Assembly (NCBI GenBank): GCA_009784895.1
Contig: WQXJ01000012.1
Location: 1-50,352, forward strand
DNA length: 50,352 bases
Reading direction: 5' to 3'
From: Micrococcales bacterium
Lineage (GTDB): Bacteria > Actinomycetota > Actinomycetes > Actinomycetales > WQXJ01
In this document: positions 2,756-12,432 of the stretch, piece by piece
Layout: every line of letters begins with the position of its first letter
How positions within the stretch are numbered: the first letter of the stretch is position 1
Program-made: the position numbers and the translations under genes
The notes under the pieces: generated by a model
The model's input: the letters and a program-made list of their open reading frames with translations, nothing else
Told to the model about the DNA's origin: nothing
Databases searched by the model: none

Positions 2756-2838
2756 GGCGGGTTGCCCGAGAGGCCAATGGGATCTGACTGTAAATCAGAC
2801 GCGGAATCGCTTCGGGAGTTCGAATCTCTCACCCGCCA
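2756..2838 (+). tRNA. tRNA-Tyr (GTA)
   Basis: The acceptor strands GGCGGGT (2756-2762) and ACCCGCC (2831-2837) pair and are followed by discriminator A and an encoded CCA (2839-2841). The anticodon arm is TCTGA-CTGTAAA-TCAGA, giving anticodon GTA. A long variable arm marks it as type II. The 3' half from 2784 is duplicated at 11776, showing this gene is the integration site of the adjoining element. The inserted copy restores an intact gene. Confidence 0.95.
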
Positions 2839-2843
2839 CCAGG
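2784..2843 (+). repeat. attL core direct repeat (60 bp)
   Basis: Bases 2784-2843 are identical to 11776-11835. The repeat begins at CTGACTGTAAATCAG in the anticodon arm, covers the variable arm, T arm, acceptor 3' strand and CCA, and ends two bases beyond. Flanking bases differ at once on both sides (T versus G before, G versus A after). Confidence 0.95.
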
Positions 2844-2937
2844 GCAAACATGCCCAAGACCTGCATCTTCACTTCTAGGCCCCGTTTCGGGGCGTGGTCG
2901 CTAGTGTACTCGGTTAGACTTGATTTGACGCTGCATC

Positions 2938-2966
2938 TTGCATGTATGTTGCACGCATCTTGCACG
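2938..2966 (+). promoter_or_regulatory. Left-arm integrase binding sites (candidate)
   Basis: Three direct heptamers, TTGCATG (2938-2944), TTGCACG (2949-2955) and TTGCACG (2960-2966), are spaced exactly 11 bp apart, so they face one side of the helix. The same heptamer with the same spacing recurs at the right end. They lie between attL and the integrase start, as expected for arm-type sites of lambda-family integrases, and would overlap any integrase promoter. Assignment is by pattern only. Confidence 0.6.
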
Positions 2967-2982
2967 CCGGGAAGGGGCTTCG

Positions 2983-4212
2983 ATGGGCAAACGTACTTGG
3001 GGGCGGGTCAGGAAGCTGCCATCAGGGAAGTGGCAAGCCGGATTCGCCCTACCTAAGGGGTACACATACAGCCTGGAAGACGGTAAAACCTACCAAGTCC
3101 CGCCTGGCAGGGTCTACCACGGACCAATGACCTATGACACCAAGGACGCTGCGGATGCGTGGCTGTCCAAGACGCGGACCGCCCTTGGCGACAGCACCTG
3201 GATCCCACCAGACGCGCCCAAGACCGAGCCGGCAAGGGTTTGGACGTTCGCCGAGTGGGCAGGCGAGGTAATGAAGGCAAAGCGCGCGAAGCTCAAACCC
3301 AAGACCTTGGCAGATTATGAGCGCTGGCTGGACAAGTACCTAATGCCGGCTTTCGGAGGTGTGCCCTTGGGGCAGATAACTCCGGACATGGTGACTGAAT
3401 GGCACTCTGGCTTGGCACCAGATCACCCGGAGAGGCACACCGGCGAGACCCTGCGTGCCTCGGTCTATCGGTTGCTGTCCAGCATCATGAACCAAGCGGT
3501 CAAAGCTAAACCACCGCTACTCGAAGACAACCCCTGCCAGATTGACAGTGCGGCGGATCCACCGGAGCCAGAGTTGAGGGACCTTCCAACGCCCCGTGAA
3601 ATCGCCAACGCAGCGGACGCGATGCCGGAGGCGTACCGGCTCACTGTTCTATTGGCCGCCTACTGCGCGTTGCGTAGTGGTGAGGTCCGCGCGCTTCAAC
3701 GACGGGACATCGACCTTCGCGGGAAACAGGCTTGGCTACGTGTGAGGCGAAACAAGGTCGGCCAGGTGGTTGGTACACCAAAGACAAGGACTGGACGCCG
3801 GACGGTGCCAATTCCAAGCGGCCTTGTGCCAGTGGTGAAGGCTCACTTGGCGGACAATGTCGAGGCCCCGGGCGATGCCTGGCTGTTTGAGGGACCACGC
3901 GGCGGGCCGCTCGCAGAAAGCACCTTCAACACGTACTGGCGCGAGGCACGCGGAAAGGCCGGGATTGGGCCCGGTGACCGTGACGATGAAGATCCCGGCG
4001 TAGACTTCCACTCCCTGCGCCGCTGGTGGGCCACCTATGCCCAGGTAGAGGCCGGCGCCACTGACCGGCAAGTCATGGAACAGCTCGGGCAGACCAGTCT
4101 TGCTGTGGTGAAGCGGTACGTGAGAGACGTTGAGGCGAAGCGGCACGAGATTTCGGAGGCTGTCGCCGGCCTGCTCGAAGACGCAGCGCCGGACCGAGAG
4201 ACCTCGGTCTAG
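2983..4212 (+). CDS. int: Tyrosine recombinase integrase of the tRNA-Tyr element
   Basis: A 409-residue site-specific recombinase that would insert and, with Xis, excise the element. The N-terminus has an arm-binding-like strand region (WGRVRKLPSGKWQAGF), then a SAM-like core-binding domain at about 85-175 (TFAEWAGEVM, KPKTLADYERWLDKYLMP), and a catalytic domain from about 200. Catalytic candidates are R231 (ALRSGEVRAL), K267 (TPKTRTGRR), H343 and R346 (FHSLRRW), and nucleophile Y379 (VKRYVRD). The usual histidine of the LGH motif is Q370 here (LGQTS). GGAAGGGG stands eight bases before the ATG; earlier in-frame starts lie in the arm-site region. Its position next to attL matches tRNA-targeting elements. 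Confidence 0.93.
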   Translation: MGKRTWGRVRKLPSGKWQAGFALPKGYTYSLEDGKTYQVPPGRVYHGPMTYDTKDAADAWLSKTRTALGDSTWIPPDAPKTEPARVWTFAEWAGEVMKAKRAKLKPKTLADYERWLDKYLMPAFGGVPLGQITPDMVTEWHSGLAPDHPERHTGETLRASVYRLLSSIMNQAVKAKPPLLEDNPCQIDSAADPPEPELRDLPTPREIANAADAMPEAYRLTVLLAAYCALRSGEVRALQRRDIDLRGKQAWLRVRRNKVGQVVGTPKTRTGRRTVPIPSGLVPVVKAHLADNVEAPGDAWLFEGPRGGPLAESTFNTYWREARGKAGIGPGDRDDEDPGVDFHSLRRWWATYAQVEAGATDRQVMEQLGQTSLAVVKRYVRDVEAKRHEISEAVAGLLEDAAPDRETSV

Positions 4213-4596
4213 GTGGTTCGAGCGCCGGCAGGCAGTGAAAATACCCAGGCTGGTACAAGACTGTAGACATCGGCCAATGGCCCGCCCGTGACCCCGTTCA
4301 ATCACGCCGCGCCCAGGGTTGGGGCGGGGCCGGGCTTTGCATATGCCGTGCGTAACCTGGGCCGGTCTGACCGAGTGGCGTAGCGGACCCGTGCCACCCA
4401 CCGGGCAATTGGACGTTTTTGTCTGAGGTCTACAGTTCGGAGGCCCCTTAGAATTGGGCATCTGCGGCTTCAGGGCATTGCCGACACGCTGGACGGCAAT
4501 AGATAGGAGCGGACGATACCGTCCAATGGTAGTCTCAATGTAATCGCCTTGAAGGGCGCTTCCAAGACCGCAGACCGAGGAAGACGAAGGTCTGCG
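4213..4596 (+). other. Intergenic region with hairpins and a possible promoter
   Basis: No gene is seen in these 384 bases. A possible promoter is TTGGAC (4409-4414), 16 bases, TACAGT (4431-4436). Two small inverted repeats lie downstream: ATTGCCG/CGGCAAT (4477-4483, 4494-4500) and GGACG/CGTCC just after. They sit ahead of the Xis-like gene and could be operators or parts of a replication origin. No iteron array is visible. Confidence 0.35.
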
Positions 4597-4806
4597 ATGC
4601 CAAAAAACGGCAGCTTGCCTACCTACCTATCAGTGGATCAGTTCGCCTATGAGACTGACACATGCACTAAAACAGTGCGCCGGCAAATACGAAAAGGCAC
4701 CATTCCGGCCAAACGTTTCGGTGATCGAATTCTAATCCCCCGGTCTGCCCTCGATAACCTGCCTGATGTTCCCAATGCGGGCACCTATTCAAGGCGGGTG
4801 GCATGA
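4597..4806 (+). CDS. Excisionase-like small HTH DNA-binding protein
   Basis: A 69-residue protein with a MerR/AlpA-type winged helix: TYLSVDQFAYETDTCTKTVRRQIRKG for the helices, then IPAKRFGDRILIPRSALDNL for the wing. This is the standard layout of excise/HTH_17 proteins (R-x-IRKGxIPAxRxGxRxLIP). It follows the integrase in the same direction. The expected role is recombination directionality or regulation of excision. GAAGG lies seven bases before the ATG at 4597. The longer upstream reading is not supported by a ribosome site. Two similar HTH proteins are on the opposite strand, so which one is the true Xis is not settled. Confidence 0.75.
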   Translation: MPKNGSLPTYLSVDQFAYETDTCTKTVRRQIRKGTIPAKRFGDRILIPRSALDNLPDVPNAGTYSRRVA

Positions 4807-4809
4807 CTA

Positions 4810-5211
4810 ATGGGCGAAAAGAAAGTGGCCGCCCTTTCGGACGGCCACAATCATAACCACGTAGTCGGAAAGTCGGAACCCAACCAGACCAAAACAATTC
4901 TACCCGACGGTGCAGACATTGGCGAGGAATTCCTGGCTAGTGTCCGTGCAAACGGTGATGCAATAGCCGCGAAGGAACGCAAGAGAGCGTCGATAACCCT
5001 GGACCAGATGCAACGGGATATGTACCCGCTGCGGGCACCAAAACCGACGTTGACGCGGGCACAAAGATGGCTTGAAGACGTTGGAAAACTGCCCCCCGAA
5101 TCGGTGCGCCGGCAGATGGCGCTGGTCTTGGTTGAGGCGGATAGGTGGTCGGTTGAGGTGATTGGCTGCGCCTTGCAGGTTGAACCCCGAATAAGGCAGG
5201 TGGCAGCATGA
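4810..5211 (+). CDS. Hypothetical protein of the element, rightward operon
   Basis: A 133-residue protein that I do not recognise. The first 35 residues are polar and His/Asn-rich (DGHNHNHVVG). The rest is predicted helical: ADIGEEFLASVRANGDAI, then RASITLDQMQRDMY, LTRAQRWLEDVGKLPPESVRRQM, and a closing amphipathic helix. No cysteine cluster, signal peptide or membrane segment is seen. It begins four bases after the HTH gene stop, with AGGCGGG upstream, and ends one base past an ATG (ATGA at 5208), so it is part of one operon feeding the ATPase gene. The location suggests a replication or regulatory accessory role, but this is inference. Confidence 0.65.
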   Translation: MGEKKVAALSDGHNHNHVVGKSEPNQTKTILPDGADIGEEFLASVRANGDAIAAKERKRASITLDQMQRDMYPLRAPKPTLTRAQRWLEDVGKLPPESVRRQMALVLVEADRWSVEVIGCALQVEPRIRQVAA

Positions 5212-5251
5212 GCGGCGCTGCGCCATTCCGTTTGGTGACCTGCCTCAACCG

Positions 5252-6928
5252 GTGCCCTTTGCGGTGGTGTGGTTGGCAGTGTTGGCAGGCATGCCACCGG
5301 GTGAATTGTCGGCATCGGCGGTGCGGGCCATGACCGGGCAACTGGGCCCGGATCCCAGGTTTGATGAACCGGCCCTGTTCGATGGCCCGGACGATCCCGG
5401 CCCGTTGGATGCTGGCGTCGAGGGTCTTGTCGAGCTGGCCAGAGACGCCGACCAAGAGTCGGACGGAACCCACCAGGCCGTGAACCTCATACATCGAACC
5501 GGGCGCGGGGCTGCCCTGCTGAACGATGTAGAGGCGTTTCTTGCCAGCTATGTCGCCTACCCCAGCGCCGCGGCCAAAGTCGCGCACACGCTTTGGATCG
5601 CTCACACCTGGCTAATGGACCGGTGGGAGTCAACGCCCCGGATCGCGTTTCTCTCACCAGAGCCGGGGTCAGGAAAGACCAGGGCGTTAGAGGTGACAGA
5701 GCCACTAGTGCCCCGTGCCGTTTTGGCTGTCAACTGCACGCCCGCCTACCTGTTCCGCAAGGTATCGGATCCGGCGGGGCCGCCAACCCTGCTATATGAC
5801 GAAATAGACACGGTCTTTGGCCCCAAAGCCAAGGACAACGAGGACGTCCGCGCCATGCTGAACTCAGGGCATCGACGCGGCGCCACTGCTGGCCGGTGTG
5901 TGGTACGCGGCGTCAAAGTTGAGACTGAAGAGCTGCCCGCCTATTGTGCTGTCGCCCTGGCTGGAATCGGCAACCTGCCAGACACCATCACGGCCAGATC
6001 AATCGTGGTCAAGATGCGCAGACGTGCGCGTGGCGAGGTTATCAAACCATGGCGGCAAAGACTGACCAGCGAGCCCGCCACAAACCTGGCGGTCCGGCTT
6101 TTGGAATGGGTCGAGACAATCCCAGCGGTCATTGAGGATTGGCCAGTCATGCCGCTTGGGGTCGAGGATCGTAACGCCGACATATGGGAAGCGCTCCTAG
6201 CGGTGGCCGATTTCGCCGGAGGTGACTGGCCAGATCGTGCCCGCGCGGCGGCCGTGACTCTGGTGGCGGAATCGGGCGACGACAGGCTGACCCTTGGCGT
6301 GACCCTGTTACGGGATTTGCAGACGGTTTTCGCCGGCCGTGACAGGTTGCCAACCGAGACCATCCTTAACGGCCTCTTGGCCATAGAGGAATCACCTTGG
6401 AGTGACCTACGGGGCAAGCCGCTCGATTCCCGCAAACTGGCCGTGTTGCTGCGCCGGTTTGAGGTGAAGCCGGGTAAACACCGGGACGGCGAATCGACTT
6501 TCCGAGGCTATTTGGCGGCCGACCTCAAAGACCCTTGGTCGAGGTACCTTCCCCCGTTACCTGGAAAGACCGGAACGGACGGAACAAGTGGAACGGACCA
6601 GGTCAACAGCCCGGTATCTGTTCCACACGACGGCCGTGCTCCGGATCGGGCGCCACAAGACGCCGGTCCATGTTCCACCAACGTACCCGGAACAGTCGAA
6701 CCATGTGGCACAGCCGGCGAGACCGTCACCAGCACTGTTCCAGGCGATCCGCCTGTTCCGCCATCTGGCGGTCACGGGCAGGCGAGCCCGGCGGGTCAAC
6801 AATCCGGGGCATCTCTGGCCGGGCAGTGCGTCGACTGCGGTAACCCCCTAGACCGCGCCCTAATTGATGCCGGTGAGACAACGCATGCGGCTTGCATTCC
6901 GGGCAGCAACCAACTAGCGAACCAGTAA
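5252..6928 (+). CDS. DUF3631-type P-loop ATPase, probable replication protein
   Basis: A 558-residue protein. The first 85 residues are poorly conserved. A P-loop domain follows with Walker A SPEPGSGKT (135-143), Walker B LLYDEID (180-186), and a sensor/arginine region ARSIVVKMRRR (248-258). The DUF3631 module follows, ending WSDLRGKPLDSRKLAVLLRR and a GYL/DPWSRYL segment. DUF3631 proteins accompany primase or helicase genes of phages, plasmids and islands. A Ser/Thr/Pro/Gly-rich linker leads to a possible C-terminal zinc hairpin (CVDCG, then HAAC). The GTG at 5252 has no ribosome site. An ATG at 5208, coupled to the previous stop, is out of frame, so the true start or a frameshift needs checking. 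Confidence 0.8.
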   Translation: MPFAVVWLAVLAGMPPGELSASAVRAMTGQLGPDPRFDEPALFDGPDDPGPLDAGVEGLVELARDADQESDGTHQAVNLIHRTGRGAALLNDVEAFLASYVAYPSAAAKVAHTLWIAHTWLMDRWESTPRIAFLSPEPGSGKTRALEVTEPLVPRAVLAVNCTPAYLFRKVSDPAGPPTLLYDEIDTVFGPKAKDNEDVRAMLNSGHRRGATAGRCVVRGVKVETEELPAYCAVALAGIGNLPDTITARSIVVKMRRRARGEVIKPWRQRLTSEPATNLAVRLLEWVETIPAVIEDWPVMPLGVEDRNADIWEALLAVADFAGGDWPDRARAAAVTLVAESGDDRLTLGVTLLRDLQTVFAGRDRLPTETILNGLLAIEESPWSDLRGKPLDSRKLAVLLRRFEVKPGKHRDGESTFRGYLAADLKDPWSRYLPPLPGKTGTDGTSGTDQVNSPVSVPHDGRAPDRAPQDAGPCSTNVPGTVEPCGTAGETVTSTVPGDPPVPPSGGHGQASPAGQQSGASLAGQCVDCGNPLDRALIDAGETTHAACIPGSNQLANQ

Positions 6929-6966
6929 GCGGACCACGAACACTAATCAATGGAAGGACAACGTCA

Positions 6967-7299
6967 ATGTACGATCCAAACGCAATAGAGCATGACCCGC
7001 CCCAACTAAACCGGTCGCATCTAGAAAAAATGACCCCGGAACAAATCATGGACGCCCACGAATGCGGCCAATTCCGGGATCTCATGGAAGGGGCGGAATC
7101 GGAAACGACCGTCTCAAAACCAACAGGCGGGATTACCGCTCAAACACCAGAGGCTCTATTCCAGGGTGGCGGCGACGTTGGGGCGCAAAGCGACTCGATA
7201 ATGCAACAACTCACCAAAACAGACCTTGAAAGCATGACCCCGGAACAAATCATGGACGCCCACAGCAAAGGGCTGTTACGTGACCTGACAGGCAGCTAA
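6967..7299 (+). CDS. Small protein with a duplicated MTPEQIMDAH motif
   Basis: A 110-residue acidic protein made of two copies of one short module. Residues 13-41 read LNRSHLEKMTPEQIMDAHECG then QFRDLMEG. Residues 82-110 read LTKTDLESMTPEQIMDAHSKG then LLRDLTGS. The linker is Gly/Thr/Gln-rich. The module looks like a helix-turn-helix hairpin of the kind seen as short repeats in actinobacterial phage proteins, but I know of no proven function. AAGGAC lies nine bases before the ATG at 6967; an earlier in-frame ATG would overlap the ATPase gene and lacks support. Confidence 0.7.
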   Translation: MYDPNAIEHDPPQLNRSHLEKMTPEQIMDAHECGQFRDLMEGAESETTVSKPTGGITAQTPEALFQGGGDVGAQSDSIMQQLTKTDLESMTPEQIMDAHSKGLLRDLTGS

Positions 7300-7352
7300 C
7301 AGGGGCACACCAGCAAAGCACTAACAATCCCAGGAACACAGGAGACACGATT

Positions 7353-8165
7353 ATGGTCAATATTCCTATTTCAGACAACTACAGGCGATTCAGCAAAGCG
7401 GCCTCAGCTGCTGGGGTCGAATTGTCGGCAGAACTCGCCGAGACCGTCAAGTTCGCCCACCAGGTTTATCGTCGGGCGGGCCGTGACTTGAAGGCATCAA
7501 AAAGTAGTGCCGTAGGCGCATATCTTGAGGCGTGCCGTCAGTGCCCAGACCAGCCGATTAGCCACCAGCCGCTACAAGAAGCCGTGTTGCAGGCCGCAGC
7601 TGAACAGTACGCCGAGTCAGCGGCATGGCGCGCCTGGACAGCCGTCAAAGAGACCGCTACCCAAGAGTTCGACAAAATAACCGAGGTCTGGCGCCCCGGT
7701 TTTCGCAAGTTGGCAACCACCCTGACCAAAACGATGACCGCCCTGGCACTGCCGGACCTTGACGAACGGCACATGGCACAAGTCCTATCGCAAGGTGGCC
7801 GTGCCGCCGCAGCGTGGAACGAAGCCCACGAAGCGGCGGCCCAGCTTGAAATGGTTGGCCTGGCTTGGATGGCCCTAGCCGAATTCGTTGGACGCGAAGC
7901 CGAGGCCGCCCAAAACTGGAACCTATACGGCATGCCGCGCGAACGCATGGTCAAAGTCAAGTACCTGCCGCTGTGGGGAGTAGACGCTCCCACTGAAACG
8001 TGGGACGCAGCAGTCAGAGCCGCTAACAAAGCCAACCGACGGGTCGGCGTTGATGAACTGGCCGGGGCCGGCGCGACGTTGAAGCTAGCGACTTGGGCCG
8101 AATATGAGGCCCGCGCCCGCGACTACATTTACCCACCGACAGAAGACACGAAAGACGTGGCCTGA
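7353..8165 (+). CDS. Unrecognised 270-residue helical protein of the element
   Basis: A 270-residue Ala-rich, largely helical soluble protein. It begins MVNIPISDNYRRFSKAAS and has charged helices throughout (FAHQVYRRAGRDLKASK, AWRAWTAVKETATQEFDK). The central WNEAHEAAAQLEMVGLAWMALAEF helix is amphipathic, and the end reads TWAEYEARARDYIYPP. No nucleotide-binding loop, zinc motif, signal peptide or membrane segment is visible. A good AGGAGA site lies before the ATG. It is followed by a 17-bp stem-loop. In a satellite, this position could hold a helper-interference or capsid-size protein, but nothing in the sequence proves it. Confidence 0.7.
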   Translation: MVNIPISDNYRRFSKAASAAGVELSAELAETVKFAHQVYRRAGRDLKASKSSAVGAYLEACRQCPDQPISHQPLQEAVLQAAAEQYAESAAWRAWTAVKETATQEFDKITEVWRPGFRKLATTLTKTMTALALPDLDERHMAQVLSQGGRAAAAWNEAHEAAAQLEMVGLAWMALAEFVGREAEAAQNWNLYGMPRERMVKVKYLPLWGVDAPTETWDAAVRAANKANRRVGVDELAGAGATLKLATWAEYEARARDYIYPPTEDTKDVA

Positions 8166-8178
8166 CCCCGCGCACCTG

Positions 8179-8224
8179 CGATAGGCGTCATTGGCTCCTA
8201 ACTCAGGGCCAGTGGCGCCTATCG
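8179..8224 (+). terminator. 17-bp stem-loop after the 7353-8165 gene
   Basis: CGATAGGCGTCATTGGC (8179-8195) pairs with GCCAGTGGCGCCTATCG (8208-8224) over all 17 positions, two of them G-U. The loop is 12 bases. No T tract follows. It lies 14 bases after the gene stop and five bases before a TAGGA ribosome site for the next gene, so it could terminate, attenuate, or protect RNA ends. Confidence 0.6.
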
Positions 8225-8241
8225 GCGCGTAGGATCAAATC

Positions 8242-8568
8242 GTGCGAAAGGCCCCGGCATGCGCCCAATCCTCGCCCATCCCAGAGCCACCAATGGTTCA
8301 AGTTGCCTACTACAACTACGGCGACCCGGTGCCGGACGTTCGCCGCTACACCGGGGAAGGCTGGGTCTACTACTGGACGCTACCTTTCCCGCCCAGGGTT
8401 GGGATGCGAGTGATAGTGCCAGCCGTAGGCGCGCGAAAAGCTGCCGTGATAGTCGGTATCGGACCCCCCGCGCGTGACCTGAGAGGAATCAAAATTCAAA
8501 GACCCAAAAGGGGTCAAATTTCAGAGACCGTTGACACCTCCAAGCGGAAAAGACACAAGCGCGCCTAG
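8242..8568 (+). CDS. Small protein resembling the PriA N-terminal DNA-binding domain
   Basis: The protein has 108 residues from GTG 8242, or 91 from ATG 8293. TAGGA lies nine bases before the GTG, which is why the longer form is used. The core reads VQVAYYNYGDPVPDVRRYTG, WVYYWTLPFPPRVGMRVIVP and ARKAAVIVGIG. The pattern of strand, aromatic pair, VGxxVxVP and AxVVxIG is like the 3'-DNA-binding beta-barrel at the start of PriA helicases and similar small phage proteins. There is no helicase part. The C-terminus is basic (RPKRGQ, KRKRHKRA), fitting nucleic-acid binding. This is a resemblance by eye, not a proven relation. Confidence 0.55.
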   Translation: MRKAPACAQSSPIPEPPMVQVAYYNYGDPVPDVRRYTGEGWVYYWTLPFPPRVGMRVIVPAVGARKAAVIVGIGPPARDLRGIKIQRPKRGQISETVDTSKRKRHKRA

Positions 8569-8618
8569 GACTACCGGCGCCAAAAGCTCACCGAGTATCC
8601 CGGGTCGGCGTCTGGCGC

Positions 8619-9233
8619 TTAGACAGATCGCAGACCGCCCCGTGGATCCTTGCGCGCGACGGTATGAGCCTTAGCCCGATCTGCCTTCAACCGGCGGACC
8701 TCGCCCCGCTCGGTAGCCTCGCCAGCCCGCTCAGTTTCGATACGCAACCGCATTAGCGCCAACGGGGACAACCCAAGCCTGTCTTCCAACTGGCGACACT
8801 CAGACTGTGCCGACATGTCACCACTCTCAGCCCGCAACAGCAGCCGACAATACCTAGCCACCACCCGCTCAGACCCGGACTCCAGCCACAACACGGCCTG
8901 GGGGCGAGCCCAAAGCTCACGCCAAACGGCTAGCTCTGCTTCTAAGCGCTCATCGGCCACCATCTGCGCCCGGTCAACCTTCAACTGGTGACGGTTCACC
9001 GCCGCCTGGGCACTCGCCTTAGCCCGACCCTGGGCGGCGGCCAGCTTCCCATCCAACGCGGCCTGCCGGTCCAACATCACCTGTAACTCGGCCTGGGCCC
9101 GTGCCCCAGGGCCCAACGGCCAGGGCGGCGGTTCAGGCAGCCGATCATTAGCCCCCAACACGCGGAACGGGTATCGGGCAGCGTTACGACTACGCGCCCT
9201 TAGCGACGGATGCTTTGGAGCAGGACCAGGCAT
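8619..9233 (-). CDS. Probable phage terminase small subunit (TerS)
   Basis: A 204-residue protein. The start MPGPAPKHPSLRARSRNAARY followed by LPEPPPWPLGPGARA is typical of actinophage small terminases. The conserved C-terminal block is present as WRELWARPQAVLWLE, VVARYCRLLLRAE, and RQLEDRLGLSPLALMRLRIE. A charged, coiled-coil-like stretch of about 50 residues (48-100) lies between them and may be an insertion. TerS binds pac or cos DNA and sets packaging specificity for the large terminase. The HNH gene is upstream on the same strand, as in HK97-like phages. No large subunit follows; instead the next gene is convergent. AAGGTGG precedes the ATG. Confidence 0.75.
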   Translation of the reverse strand: MPGPAPKHPSLRARSRNAARYPFRVLGANDRLPEPPPWPLGPGARAQAELQVMLDRQAALDGKLAAAQGRAKASAQAAVNRHQLKVDRAQMVADERLEAELAVWRELWARPQAVLWLESGSERVVARYCRLLLRAESGDMSAQSECRQLEDRLGLSPLALMRLRIETERAGEATERGEVRRLKADRAKAHTVARKDPRGGLRSV

Positions 9234-9414
9234 AACGAACCACCTTCAAGGCTCTGGTCTGCGTTCCGATTCTACCAACCGGGACGCCGCGACCGGTGAT
9301 AGTGGCACGGTCAAACCGGCCTGGGGAACTTTGGCGCCACTTTTTCTACCTCACCCGCGGTCCTATAGGGCGCGGTTTTTTGGGGGGTGCCCCCCTATTG
9401 GGGGTGGGGGGTGG
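9234..9414 (-). other. HNH-TerS gap with dyad: candidate cos site
   Basis: This 181-base non-coding gap contains CCGCG-GT-CCTATAGG-G-CGCGG (9355-9375), an imperfect dyad built around the 8-bp palindrome CCTATAGG. T6 follows it on the plus strand. Next come runs of G and C (GGGGGG at 9382-9387, CCCCCC at 9390-9395) that can fold several ways. In HK97-type phages cos lies between the HNH gene and terS, which is this position. The dyad plus T6 could alternatively be a plus-strand intrinsic terminator. Confidence 0.45.
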
Positions 9415-9792
9415 TTAGTGGCGTAGTGTGCCGTGTGTTGCTGCGGTTTTCCGGTCGTGGCATGGTTTGCAGAGGCCTTGCCCGTGTTCGGGTGCGTTTG
9501 GGTTTTTTCCGGCGCGTTTCAGTTCGTCGCGTTCGAGTGGTGCGTGATCTGCGATTGTTGAGCGTTGTCCGCATTGGCCTTTGTGTGGGCACCAGGGGGC
9601 GGCGCATTGGCAGTAGGGGTCGCGTGCGAGAACTTGTTGCCTGAAATTCTTGTGGCCGCGTGTCTTGTATTCGCGGTTGCGGGGGCGTGATGGTGTGGGG
9701 TTGGTGTGAGTGCAGTCGGGGCAGTGTCCTGGTTTGTCGGCGAGGTTGGGGCAGTGTGGGTTGCGGCAGGGGTAGGTGGCGGGTGGGGTCAT
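9415..9792 (-). CDS. HNH endonuclease of phage packaging type
   Basis: A 125-residue protein. The N-terminal zinc knuckle uses C9, C14, C24 and C27. A basic linker (RPRNREYKTRGHKNFRQQVLARD) leads to the HNH core: DH at 82-83 (IADHAPL), Asn at 97 or 99, and C108/C111-H112 (GLCKPCHDRKTA). Additional cysteines at 61, 63, 68 and 74 resemble the second metal knuckle of phage HNH proteins. In cos phages such HNH proteins act with TerS and TerL in cleaving cos. The gene has no ribosome site and its ATG overlaps the stop of an upstream reading frame (ATGA), suggesting translational coupling. It reads on the same strand as TerS. Confidence 0.85.
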   Translation of the reverse strand: MTPPATYPCRNPHCPNLADKPGHCPDCTHTNPTPSRPRNREYKTRGHKNFRQQVLARDPYCQCAAPWCPHKGQCGQRSTIADHAPLERDELKRAGKNPNAPEHGQGLCKPCHDRKTAATHGTLRH

Positions 9793-9971
9793 GGGTGGGC
9801 CTGGGTGAGGGTGTGGGCCTTGTTGCGGATGGCTTGTTGTGCTTTGTTGGTGTGGTCTTTGTCGGTGCAGTCTAGGCAGGCCCAGGCGACTAGGTAGATG
9901 GTGGGGTCACGTGGGAGGTAGTGCCATGTGGTCTGTCCGTGGGGGTGGCCTGGTGGGGGTGGGGCTGGCCC
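9789..9971 (-). pseudogene. Coding-like frame without a start codon, upstream of HNH
   Basis: This frame runs between a TAG (9974-9972) and a TGA that overlaps the HNH ATG. It reads GQTTWHYLPRDPTIYLVAWA, then CLDCTDKDHTNKAQQAIRNK, ending LTQAHP. The composition is protein-like, with a CxxC, and the 4-base overlap with HNH is typical of real genes. No ATG, GTG or TTG is available, and the 5' part is a C-rich tract where a frameshift is easy. It is either a broken gene or one whose frame is lost in the C tract. The remainder of 9972-10182 holds a short tandem repeat and a hairpin. Confidence 0.4.
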
Positions 9972-10014
9972 CTACTCCTGGGGGCCGGGGGTTGTCTGTT
10001 GGTGCGTGTGGTTG

Positions 10015-10070
10015 GTTGCTGCTGGTCTCTTTGGTAGTTGCTGCTGGTCTCTTTGGTAGTTGCTGCTGGC
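10015..10070. repeat. 22-bp tandem repeat, 2.5 copies
   Basis: GTTGCTGCTGGTCTCTTTGG followed by TA occurs at 10015-10036 and 10037-10058 without change, and a third copy is cut at 10070. It lies in non-coding DNA between the HNH-TerS pair and the regulator operon. Confidence 0.9.
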
Positions 10071-10126
10071 CCTGGGGGTGTGTGGGTCTGCCTACCAGGG
10101 CAGGGCCTTAGGTGCTGGGAAGGGTA

Positions 10127-10165
10127 GGCCCCCAGGGTGGGTTGGTGTCCCGCGCCCTGGGGGCC
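10127..10165 (-). terminator. Hairpin after the regulator operon
   Basis: A perfect 11-bp inverted repeat, GGCCCCCAGGG (10127-10137) and CCCTGGGGGCC (10155-10165), has a 17-base loop. It lies 18 bases beyond the stop of the leftward regulator gene ending at 10183. There is no T tract, which is common for actinobacterial terminators. Confidence 0.55.
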
Positions 10166-10182
10166 TGTGTCTGTGGTGCGTG

Positions 10183-10917
10183 TTAGACCGCTACCAGGTC
10201 CGACACGTGGGCCCCGATGGCGTCGGCCACGCGCCACAGCTCGCTAATCCCAAAGTCGGAGTGGCCGGCAAGTTTCCGGGACAAGGTCACGCAGGGGATA
10301 CCTGTCTTTTCGGCAACCTGGCGGCGTGACAAGCCGCTTGCCCGGAGCGCGTCGCGTGTCTTGCCGGCGATCACGGCTCTCAGGGCTGGGGCGTCGAGGT
10401 TGGCGGGTGACTTGTGTTTGCGCGCCTTGGCTGCGCGGGCCCTCAGTTCGGCCCGTGTGGCGGTGATAAGCAGCGTGATTGCGTTGTCGGTCTCCGAGTC
10501 AATGTTGCTGTTATCCAACAAGCAAACCAACGCCTCTTGTAGGGCGTTGAGTTGACCGGCGTCCAGGTCAATAGTGGCGACGGTTGGCCCGGATTCGTAA
10601 TCGCCTGAGTCGAGGTGGGCTTCCTCCATGGTCGACCAGTTGAGGCCGAATTGATTGCAGATCTGTTCCTTGTCGCCCGGTCCCATCATGTCATCAGGGC
10701 TCCACCATTCGGCTTGGTTGGCGAGGAGGCGCGACGCTGAGTCATTGTCAATTAGGAGGATATCCGCCAACCATTTCGGGGTGATTGGTTTGCCCATTAG
10801 TTTGGTCGCATATTTGAGGTTGGCTGTGAATAGGTGGTCTCGCCAGTAGTAGTCGGTGCTATTGGGACGTGTGCCCCTCACTTGGTCGGTTTGCGGTGCC
10901 AACGCGGTGCCGGTCAT
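10183..10917 (-). CDS. HTH protein with C-terminal XRE-type domain
   Basis: A 244-residue protein. The C-terminal 60 residues form an XRE-type helix-turn-helix: TRDALRASGLSRRQVAEKTG, then IPCVTLSRKLAGHSDF and LWRVADAIG. The N-terminal two-thirds include FTANLKYATKLMGKPITPKW and LLANQAEWWSPDDMMGPGDK and resemble the partner region of phage-type regulators that begin with a start-of-domain helix bundle, but I do not recognise a family. The start at 10917 is chosen because its ATG overlaps the TGA of the preceding gene (ATGA). It is the third gene of the leftward regulator operon and is followed by a hairpin. A lysogeny or satellite-control role is inferred. Confidence 0.7.
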   Translation of the reverse strand: MTGTALAPQTDQVRGTRPNSTDYYWRDHLFTANLKYATKLMGKPITPKWLADILLIDNDSASRLLANQAEWWSPDDMMGPGDKEQICNQFGLNWSTMEEAHLDSGDYESGPTVATIDLDAGQLNALQEALVCLLDNSNIDSETDNAITLLITATRAELRARAAKARKHKSPANLDAPALRAVIAGKTRDALRASGLSRRQVAEKTGIPCVTLSRKLAGHSDFGISELWRVADAIGAHVSDLVAV

Positions 10918-11174
10918 GACATGGCCCCCACGGTGTCGAGGGACCGGACCCATGCAGACAGGTCATCGGCGAGGATCAGGTATCTGCCGGATTTGCCGGT
11001 GCTGCTTGGCTGATGCACGCACGGCAGGGGTGGCCAGCCTGTCTCGGTGTTGACTGCCCCAGCCCGGTAGGCGTGGCAAGCGCGGCGGATGGTGGAGACG
11101 CTGAGGCAAGTGGCGGTGGCAGCACCTGGCAGGGTGTAAGAAATCTGGCTTAGATTGGTCTTTGTGTTGGTCAT
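10914..11174 (-). CDS. Small HTH_17/AlpA-like DNA-binding protein
   Basis: An 86-residue protein with the excisionase-type layout: YTLPGAATATCLSVSTIRRA for the helices, a short Gly/Pro region with one CVHQP turn, then GKSGRYLILADDLSAWVRSL for the wing and last helix. Proteins of this type act as excisionases or activators in islands. It starts and ends with ATGA overlaps, joined to the XRE gene upstream and the larger HTH gene downstream, so the three genes should be translated together. It is a second Xis candidate, in addition to the protein at 4597. Confidence 0.7.
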   Translation of the reverse strand: MTNTKTNLSQISYTLPGAATATCLSVSTIRRACHAYRAGAVNTETGWPPLPCVHQPSSTGKSGRYLILADDLSAWVRSLDTVGAMS

Positions 11175-11467
11175 GGGTTCTGTCCTTTGCTTGGTTGGTT
11201 GACTGCCCAGGTGTCGGGCGCAGCATTGACCGCCTCGCCCGCGAGCAAGTAGTCGGGATCCACTCCCAGGGCGTGGCCGATGCTCTCCAGCTCGTTTGTG
11301 TCAAATGGCCGCAGCGCTCGCAGCTTGTATGACAGCGATGCCTTTGGCAGTCCGGTAGCGGCGGCCAGCCCTCCAAGTGAGCGGCTGGCGTGGGCCATGG
11401 CTTCATTGACGCGGCGGGCCACTGCCTGCCGTAGCGTCTCGGTGGGGGTTGTAGTTGCGGTGGTCAT
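11171..11467 (-). CDS. XRE-family transcriptional regulator, first gene of the leftward operon
   Basis: A 98-residue protein with a classic helix-turn-helix: LRQAVARRVNEAMAHASRSL, GGLAAATGLPKASLSYKLRA, then FDTNELESIGHALGVDPDYLL. GGAAGGA lies eight bases before the ATG. In the circular element it would be the first gene on one side of attP, divergent from integrase, the usual place of the master repressor of phages and islands. It has no peptidase or signal domain, so induction would need a partner or anti-repressor. Confidence 0.8.
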   Translation of the reverse strand: MTTATTTPTETLRQAVARRVNEAMAHASRSLGGLAAATGLPKASLSYKLRALRPFDTNELESIGHALGVDPDYLLAGEAVNAAPDTWAVNQPSKGQNP

Positions 11468-11775
11468 ATGGGTTTCCTTCCAGAGTTGTAGGGGTTGGTT
11501 TCCTCGGGTGGTTACCTACGCCGGCCACGATGGGGGTTTTCGGTCTGTGAGTACTCTTGGATTGTCGCCACAGCGCTTGCTGCCGAATCGGCGAGGACGC
11601 TGAGGCATTGACCCGGTTGCGGGCCTGACAGCAGGTTCCCAGGTGTTGTGTCGGGCGGGACATGGCCGGGTTAGGATAAGTATTGCGGGCGTCGATTCTG
11701 GCTCCTTGGCTTCTGTTAGTTTTGCACGTACATTGCACGGGCGGGGGCCCTAGGGCCTTGACCTGGTGGCCGTGG
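11468..11775. other. Right-end non-coding region of the element
   Basis: These 308 bases hold no gene. They must contain the promoter of the leftward regulator operon; no clear minus 35/minus 10 pair stands out. The right integrase arm sites lie at 11722-11739, 37 bases before attR. Confidence 0.6.
11722..11739 (+). promoter_or_regulatory. Right-arm integrase binding sites (candidate)
   Basis: TTGCACG occurs at 11722-11728 and 11733-11739, again with 11-bp spacing and in the same orientation as the left-end trio at 2938-2966. Sharing of word, phase and orientation at both ends of the element supports arm-type integrase sites. Confidence 0.6.
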
Positions 11776-11835
11776 CTGACTGTAAATCAGACGCGGAATC
11801 GCTTCGGGAGTTCGAATCTCTCACCCGCCACCAGG
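11776..11835 (+). repeat. attR core direct repeat (60 bp)
   Basis: An exact copy of 2784-2843, containing the tRNA-Tyr anticodon arm to CCA. The 5' acceptor and D arm are absent, so it is not a second tRNA gene. Host DNA resumes at 11836. Confidence 0.95.
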
Positions 11836-11868: not shown

Positions 11869-12432
11869 CTAGTCTCCCATGCGATTGAAGGCATTTCGCA
11901 CCTTGATCACGATGCTGGGCGCGACGGTGGCGATCGACGCGCACGCGCTGAGGGCGCCAAGACCACTTTTCCCAGACAGAGTGAGCCACACGAAGGCCAC
12001 CAAAAATGCGAAAGGCACCAGTCCCTGCAAGACAGTCATAATCAAGAACGCCAGGGACGTTGCCTTGGATTCTAGTGCCTGGCCAGCGATGCGGGACGCC
12101 AGGTCGCTCTCGGCCATGCGCAGAATCCTGTCCGCGCTACCAGGTAATGCGTGATCGTAGGCCGCAAAGTCTTCGGGCGGAGGCAGCGGGCCAGATCGGA
12201 AAACCTCTGCCGTTGCGTGCTGGACCACTAGGCCTGGGTGGGTTCCCGCCTCATCGCTGTCCTCATCGACTCGCCCACCTGCTGCCAAGAGTCCCTCGTC
12301 AGGTTGTTTCTTCGGCTGTTGGGTCCTGCCTGCGTGTCGCGGAACGTCTGGAATGTGGTCTCCGGGTCCGTCGCCATCTGGGCGCTCGCCTTGAGTGCTC
12401 GCTGGATCGCTTGGCCGGTGCTCATGTGTCAA
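11869..12432 (-). CDS. DUF2335 family membrane protein
   Basis: A 187-residue reading frame. The recognised part is FRSGPLPPPEDFAAYDHALP then GSADRILRMAESD, the DUF2335 signature, followed by a helix and two membrane segments (LAFLIMTVLQGLVPFAFLVA and a second with ASIATVAPSIVI). The function of the family is unknown, and it is often near mobile DNA. The N-terminal 60 residues are low-complexity and uncertain. A TTG at 12432 has GAGGA at good spacing, while an ATG at 12425 opens another frame (MSTGQAIQRALKASAQ) that looks more natural but stops at 12228, so a frameshift is possible. It lies just outside attR. Confidence 0.65.
   Translation of the reverse strand: MTHEHRPSDPASTQGERPDGDGPGDHIPDVPRHAGRTQQPKKQPDEGLLAAGGRVDEDSDEAGTHPGLVVQHATAEVFRSGPLPPPEDFAAYDHALPGSADRILRMAESDLASRIAGQALESKATSLAFLIMTVLQGLVPFAFLVAFVWLTLSGKSGLGALSACASIATVAPSIVIKVRNAFNRMGD

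Follow-up and report, generated by a model that had tools for sequence, protein, structure and literature searches.

The window analysed here, a stretch of 50,352 nucleotides from a Micrococcales bacterium, holds an element of 8,992 bp bounded by two 60-bp direct repeats (Table 1). As the first-pass annotation had stated, the repeat copies are 100% identical, and the left one forms the 3' part of a tRNA-Tyr gene, which is left intact as integration target. Close pairs of the motif TTGCAYG occur three times in the 50-kb window, against 0.01 expected, and all of them lie at the two attP arms. They look like arm-type sites of the integrase, which speaks for the element truly ending at the repeats. 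In all five same-family genomes inspected (G003, G007, G009, G010 and G011) the tRNA-Tyr gene is without an element, and no full prophage, named in the first-pass annotation as the finding that would speak against a satellite, was seen at this site. In four of the five, tRNA-Tyr is followed by tRNA-Thr, at a distance of ~77 to 1,270 bp, and then by tRNA-Met; the same order is kept in the window, with the 9-kb element sitting between tRNA-Tyr and tRNA-Thr. The gene next to tRNA-Tyr in G011 is large and host-like, and the contig ends before tRNA-Thr could appear. We found the element in no other genome. Just outside attR lies a gene for a DUF2335 membrane protein (11869-12432); the tRNA-Tyr/tRNA-Thr interval, which holds this gene here, varies widely in length among the relatives.

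Two gene groups of opposite orientation make up the element. Integrase, excisionase, orfA, a DUF3631 protein, OrfB, orfC and orfD read rightward, and a Cro/C1-like HTH repressor, orfF, the HTH regulator orfE, an HNH endonuclease and the small terminase subunit TerS read leftward. Family matches bore out the integrase, Xis-like, DUF3631, HTH, HNH and TerS genes named earlier, as well as the minus-strand position of the HNH-TerS arm opposite to the integration and replication arm. Scans against Pfam, PHROGs and NCBIfam recognised no TerL, portal, capsid or tail family in the element, in line with the first-pass annotation; the only packaging or assembly parts detected were TerS, HNH and scaffold motifs. 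No family match was obtained in these scans for orfA, orfC and orfD, and no defence genes were reported by PADLOC. The orfA product is 49% identical over 37 aa to its counterpart at the same position in a satellite-like element of a related genome (L160, see below). For orfC, no homologue was found in phages, viral contigs or the other genomes of the 396 searched and the structure model is poor (pLDDT 46), so that we assign it no function. A strongly G/T-biased strand was observed beside the packaging genes both in the window (9250-10250, containing the 22-bp tandem repeat) and in L160 (10160-10700).

Table 1. Features of the tRNA-Tyr element and its flanks (window positions).
Feature	Position	Strand	Basis or remark
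tRNA-Tyr (gta), integration target, left intact	2756..2841	+	ARAGORN, Rfam RF00005
attL core, 60 bp	2784..2843	+	perfect repeat
Putative integrase arm-type repeats TTGCAYG x3, 11-bp pitch	2938..2966	+	TRF
Tyrosine integrase	2983..4212	+	PF00589 8e-19, phrog_1 1e-59; catalytic R, HxxR, Y by eye
Excisionase (Xis)	4597..4806	+	TIGR01764 over cut-off; PF12728 (HTH_17)
orfA, 133 aa	4810..5211	+	partial homologue in L160 satellite
DUF3631 / RepAM-type replication ATPase	5252..6928	+	PF12307 2e-53; GxGKT Walker A by eye
OrfB, 110 aa, two scaffold C-terminal (capsid-binding) motifs and linker	6967..7299	+	scaffold-only HMM
orfC, 270 aa, predicted all-helical at low confidence	7353..8165	+	no homologue found
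orfD, up to 108 aa	8242..8568	+	no family match
Terminase small subunit TerS, 204 aa	8619..9233	-	phage homologues adjoin TerL
cos core CCGCGGGTGA^GG	9349..9360	-	predicted cleavage between 9351 and 9350; within HNH-TerS gap 9234-9414
HNH endonuclease	9415..9792	-	phrog_144 1e-10
22-bp tandem repeat x2.5 (iteron-like), candidate origin or terminase-binding site	10015..10069	+	
orfE, C-terminal HTH regulator	10183..10953	-	phrog_4583 repressor 7e-13
orfF, small protein	10914..11174	-	weak HTH_17 resemblance (E 0.067) and nothing else
Cro/C1-like repressor	11171..11467	-	phrog_2328 1e-8
Putative integrase arm-type repeats TTGCACG x2	11722..11739	+	paired-pattern search
attR core, 60 bp	11776..11835	+	perfect repeat

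The identity of TerS follows from the position of its relatives rather than from its family label. Against Pfam Terminase_7 it scores below the cut-off, and PHROG 226 as well as two RefSeq phage records label the family "minor tail protein". We rejected this label because its members lie directly before TerL: a full-length homologue (43%) in the M. abscessus phage CCUG48898T-2 immediately precedes TerL, as do the homologues in 22 of 22 IMG/VR loci; in phage Kromp the homologue is gene 1 and is annotated "terminase small subunit". Both annotated phages whose TerS surroundings were read have TerL as the next gene. Judged by this gene context, the family so labelled in PHROGs and some RefSeq records is the terminase small subunit. 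In the window, the downstream neighbour of TerS is not TerL but the convergent orfD on the opposite strand. The HNH protein is 47-49% identical to the HNH encoded just upstream of TerS in the phage loci L002-L004.

The 181-bp gap between HNH and TerS carries ACCGCGGGTGAGG on the minus strand, in which ACCGCGGGTGA^GG matches the physical genome ends of the phages Kromp, Dubu, Phishy, Tiff81 and phiSASD1. When their ends are joined, Kromp reads ACCGCGGGGGA^GGG, Dubu ACGCGGGGGA^GGG, Phishy CCGCGGGGGA^GGG and Tiff81 ACCGCCGGTGA^GGTG; the phiSASD1 genome begins with CGCGGGGGAGGG. Since HNH is the last and TerS the first gene in Kromp and Tiff81, joining of the ends generates an HNH-cos-TerS arrangement, as in the window. 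The core occurs once in the 50-kb window (0.11 expected); nine phage loci have it upstream of TerS, at a distance of 91-213 bp, and it also occurs in L162 and L164. A G-run/C-run palindrome precedes it in the phage loci and likewise in the window, whereas the sequence just downstream, AGAAAAAGTGGCG, differs from the commonest phage form, GTACGGGTTC. Cleavage at the predicted position would leave a 9-nt 3' overhang, CGCGGGTGA. The packaging redirection proposed in the first-pass annotation is supported, whereas the pac/TerS type implied by its model is to be replaced by a cos type with HNH endonuclease. The cos site, the scaffold motifs of OrfB, the integrase arm sites and the related TerL-less islands had not been part of that annotation.

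OrfB carries the motif L...L..MTPEQIMDAH..G...DL twice, once close to the N-terminus and once at the very C-terminal end, and apart from the linker between the two copies it contains little else. This motif also forms the extreme C-terminus of scaffold proteins in L004, L002, phiSASD1, Thermobifida P318 and CCUG48898T-2, all of them encoded directly before the capsid gene; the phage matches of OrfB are scaffold genes. An HMM built from phage scaffolds only detected OrfB with 71.7 bits (E 2e-21) in two domains; the next best frame of the window scored 7.5 bits and the best of 5,000 shuffles 12.3 bits. A match to RPAP1_N stayed below the cut-off and was set aside in favour of the scaffold motifs. 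Folded as a single sequence, OrfB is predicted to form two short helical modules (moderate confidence) joined by a low-confidence linker. In SaPI1, CpmB binds the capsid protein via a helix and hook common to the helper scaffold, which results in small capsids (PMC5644958). Based on the duplicated scaffold motif, the HMM match, the fold and the CpmB precedent, we read OrfB as a bivalent hook protein that may divert capsid size; unlike CpmB, it has no dimerisation domain that we could recognise. A search of viral contigs by peptide pattern returned no kin of OrfB.

Taken as a whole, the locus is very likely an intact, integrative, cos-type phage satellite that would combine its own TerS with a helper TerL and whose OrfB would compete for the helper's capsid protein. 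A packaging-redirecting satellite, as proposed initially, is the best reading, and the five relatives inspected have no full prophage at the site. Parts for integration, replication, packaging start and capsid hooking are present without capsid, tail or packaging motor, which is why we think that the element probably spreads by hijacking the heads of another phage, possibly down-sizing those heads. According to our proposal, a helper phage would relieve the HTH repressor, Int and Xis would excise the element and the DUF3631 protein would replicate it. The element's TerS and HNH would then bring the helper TerL to the element's own cos, and cos-bounded units of 9.0 kb, or concatemers, would be packaged into helper virions. 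The two hooks of OrfB would compete with the helper scaffold for capsid protein, leading to small heads or to interference with normal ones. We did not detect a PF03354 TerL in the host draft, an L004-type TerL in 18 family genomes, or a close match to the cos pattern in viral contigs; a helper that arrives by infection would be expected to be absent from host draft and family.

Within the satellite reading, there is a fair-sized minority case for packaging through cos, TerS and HNH only, with OrfB being a leftover or a blocker of helper capsid assembly and not a size-redirecting scaffold. OrfB is devoid of the coiled-coil body of scaffolds, cos satellites could enter full-size heads as concatemers, and a differently laid-out protein of viral contig L113 retains a single such motif. 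Against this, the motif is duplicated with both copies conserved, and two linked hooks resemble the CpmB dimer in valency. Should OrfB indeed act on capsid size, it would appear to be a second invention of the scaffold mimicry known from SaPI1 CpmB, and a very small one, with two hooks on one short chain; capsid-size control would become testable with a protein of 110 aa.

It is rather improbable that the locus is the deleted remnant of a full-size cos prophage, reduced to its genes for integration, regulation, replication and left-end packaging. TerS, HNH and cos do derive from phages and have their closest matches in full phages, but the genes of the element are open and of full length (TerS has the 204 aa seen in phages), neither TerL nor portal has left a fragment next to TerS, which is followed downstream by a convergent gene, and OrfB consists of two hook motifs instead of a truncated scaffold. 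The empty tRNA-Tyr site of the five relatives does not fit such a history either, and random decay is at odds with the recurrence of similar TerL-less layouts in other genomes (see below). The weakest alternative is an actinomycete integrative conjugative element (AICE): The window and AICEs of the pMEA300 type have Int, Xis and a DUF3631 replication protein in common, the DUF3631 protein RepAM serves some AICEs as replication initiator (PMC3218068), and many DUF3631 relatives lie in Streptomyces loci without match to the phage queries used, but the required transfer module, an FtsK/SpoIIIE-type Tra protein, has no match among the encoded proteins and TerS, HNH, cos and scaffold motifs are carried instead, which makes this origin extremely doubtful.

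Islands without TerL that have part of the backbone in common with the satellite, together with TerS and/or a capsid or tape-measure gene, were found in a same-family genome, in the same order, in Demequina and in M. asiaticum. L160 (G003:C38, 3342-10882) is a 7.5-kb satellite-like element at tRNA-Ser(cga) of a same-family genome with a 30-bp repeat; it encodes int, xis, the orfA relative, an AAA_25 helicase, a capsid protein (PF05065) and a TerS 44% identical to that of the window, and neither TerL nor portal was detected in it. In G051, a genome of the same order, two copies of a 35-bp repeat (89% identical, 12.1 kb apart) enclose int, DUF3631, a TerS-like gene and a tape-measure protein (L027, 995-13146). 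The Demequina locus L040 (7667-13278) has the order int-xis-orfA-like-DUF3631-TerS, with the cos-like CCGCCGGGGATGG just before TerS. In M. asiaticum, a 26-bp repeat at tRNA-Arg surrounds int, DUF3631, capsid and tape-measure genes (L037, 7477-17161). Two viral contigs combine DUF3631 with HNH-TerS-tape measure (L112, 597-6927) or with a one-hook OrfB relative, the cos core and a tape measure (L113, 9947-15500). No TerL was found near L027, L112, L113 or L037, and these may possibly be satellites acting on helper tails, either by interference or by replacement.

As a tentative generalisation, phage satellites of the Actinomycetota may form a modular class in which related int-xis-replication backbones serve as the base. 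Each member would add TerS or cos and one or two helper-morphogenesis genes: a capsid protein (in the G003 element, which is without DUF3631, and together with a tape measure in M. asiaticum), a tape measure (G051, L112 and L113) or, in the present element, a stripped-down bivalent scaffold hook redirecting capsid size. If our reading is correct, the known satellites are joined by an actinobacterial one of cos type that carries an HNH-cos-TerS module of its own, and surveys that define satellites by a capsid gene overlook such elements.

The element is neither a canonical Gram-positive PICI, a capsid-forming PICI or a Mycobacterium-type candidate PICI nor an AICE, even though its sequence places it among phage satellites in the broad sense (HNH-cos-TerS without TerL). 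With Int, DUF3631 and the Cro/C1-like HTH protein it possesses the integrase, replication module and master regulator listed for Gram-positive PICIs (PMC6092414). Another feature listed for them is a unique att site that prophages never occupy (PMC6092414); for tRNA-Tyr, the five relatives inspected show no element. In Gram-positive PICIs, however, the regulator of the integrated form lies next to int and packaging genes follow downstream of replication (PMC6092414), whereas here the regulator operon is at the far end, on the HNH-TerS strand and opposite to int-rep; at 8,992 bp, the element also falls short of the typical ~15 kb (PMC6092414). Because gene order and size both deviate, we file it as a PICI-like cos satellite. 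The earlier remark that its layout does not copy the staphylococcal type holds, in view of the different gene order and the HNH-TerS arm opposite to replication. The accompanying claim that few satellites have been described in this lineage needs qualification, as candidate Mycobacterium PICIs (phiRv1/phiRv2 among them) and the Streptomyces elements Mulch and Flayer are already on record for Actinobacteria.

Like the window element, the candidate Mycobacterium PICIs, including phiRv1/phiRv2 (PMC10654092), are small, att-bounded and often located at a tRNA gene, and they encode an integrase and a replication protein but few virion components. The DUF3631 protein is common to the window and to two apparent members of that group, M. 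asiaticum L037 and Mycolicibacter L044. These candidates are defined by an integrase plus a major capsid gene, whereas no capsid family is present in the window element, which has HNH-cos-TerS and a two-hook OrfB instead. HNH and TerS also occur in the capsid-forming PICIs and in Mulch/Flayer, the latter likewise actinobacterial, but those satellites encode TerL, portal and capsid, none of which was found here. The pac-type SaPI1 and SaPIbov1 resemble the window in having their own TerS without TerL, and SaPI1 CpmB resembles OrfB in using the C-terminal capsid-binding motif of the helper scaffold. Differences are the cos instead of pac type, the gene order, the DUF3631 Rep and the size (9 kb versus about 15 kb); neither CpmA nor Ppi was recognised in the window. 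The cos-type SaPIbov5 has a helper-like cos on the satellite, as the window does, but relies on a phage-encoded HNH and terminase, whereas HNH and TerS are part of the element here. Moreover, SaPIbov5 uses Ccm, a homologue of the capsid protein, whereas the size factor of the tRNA-Tyr element would be scaffold-like.
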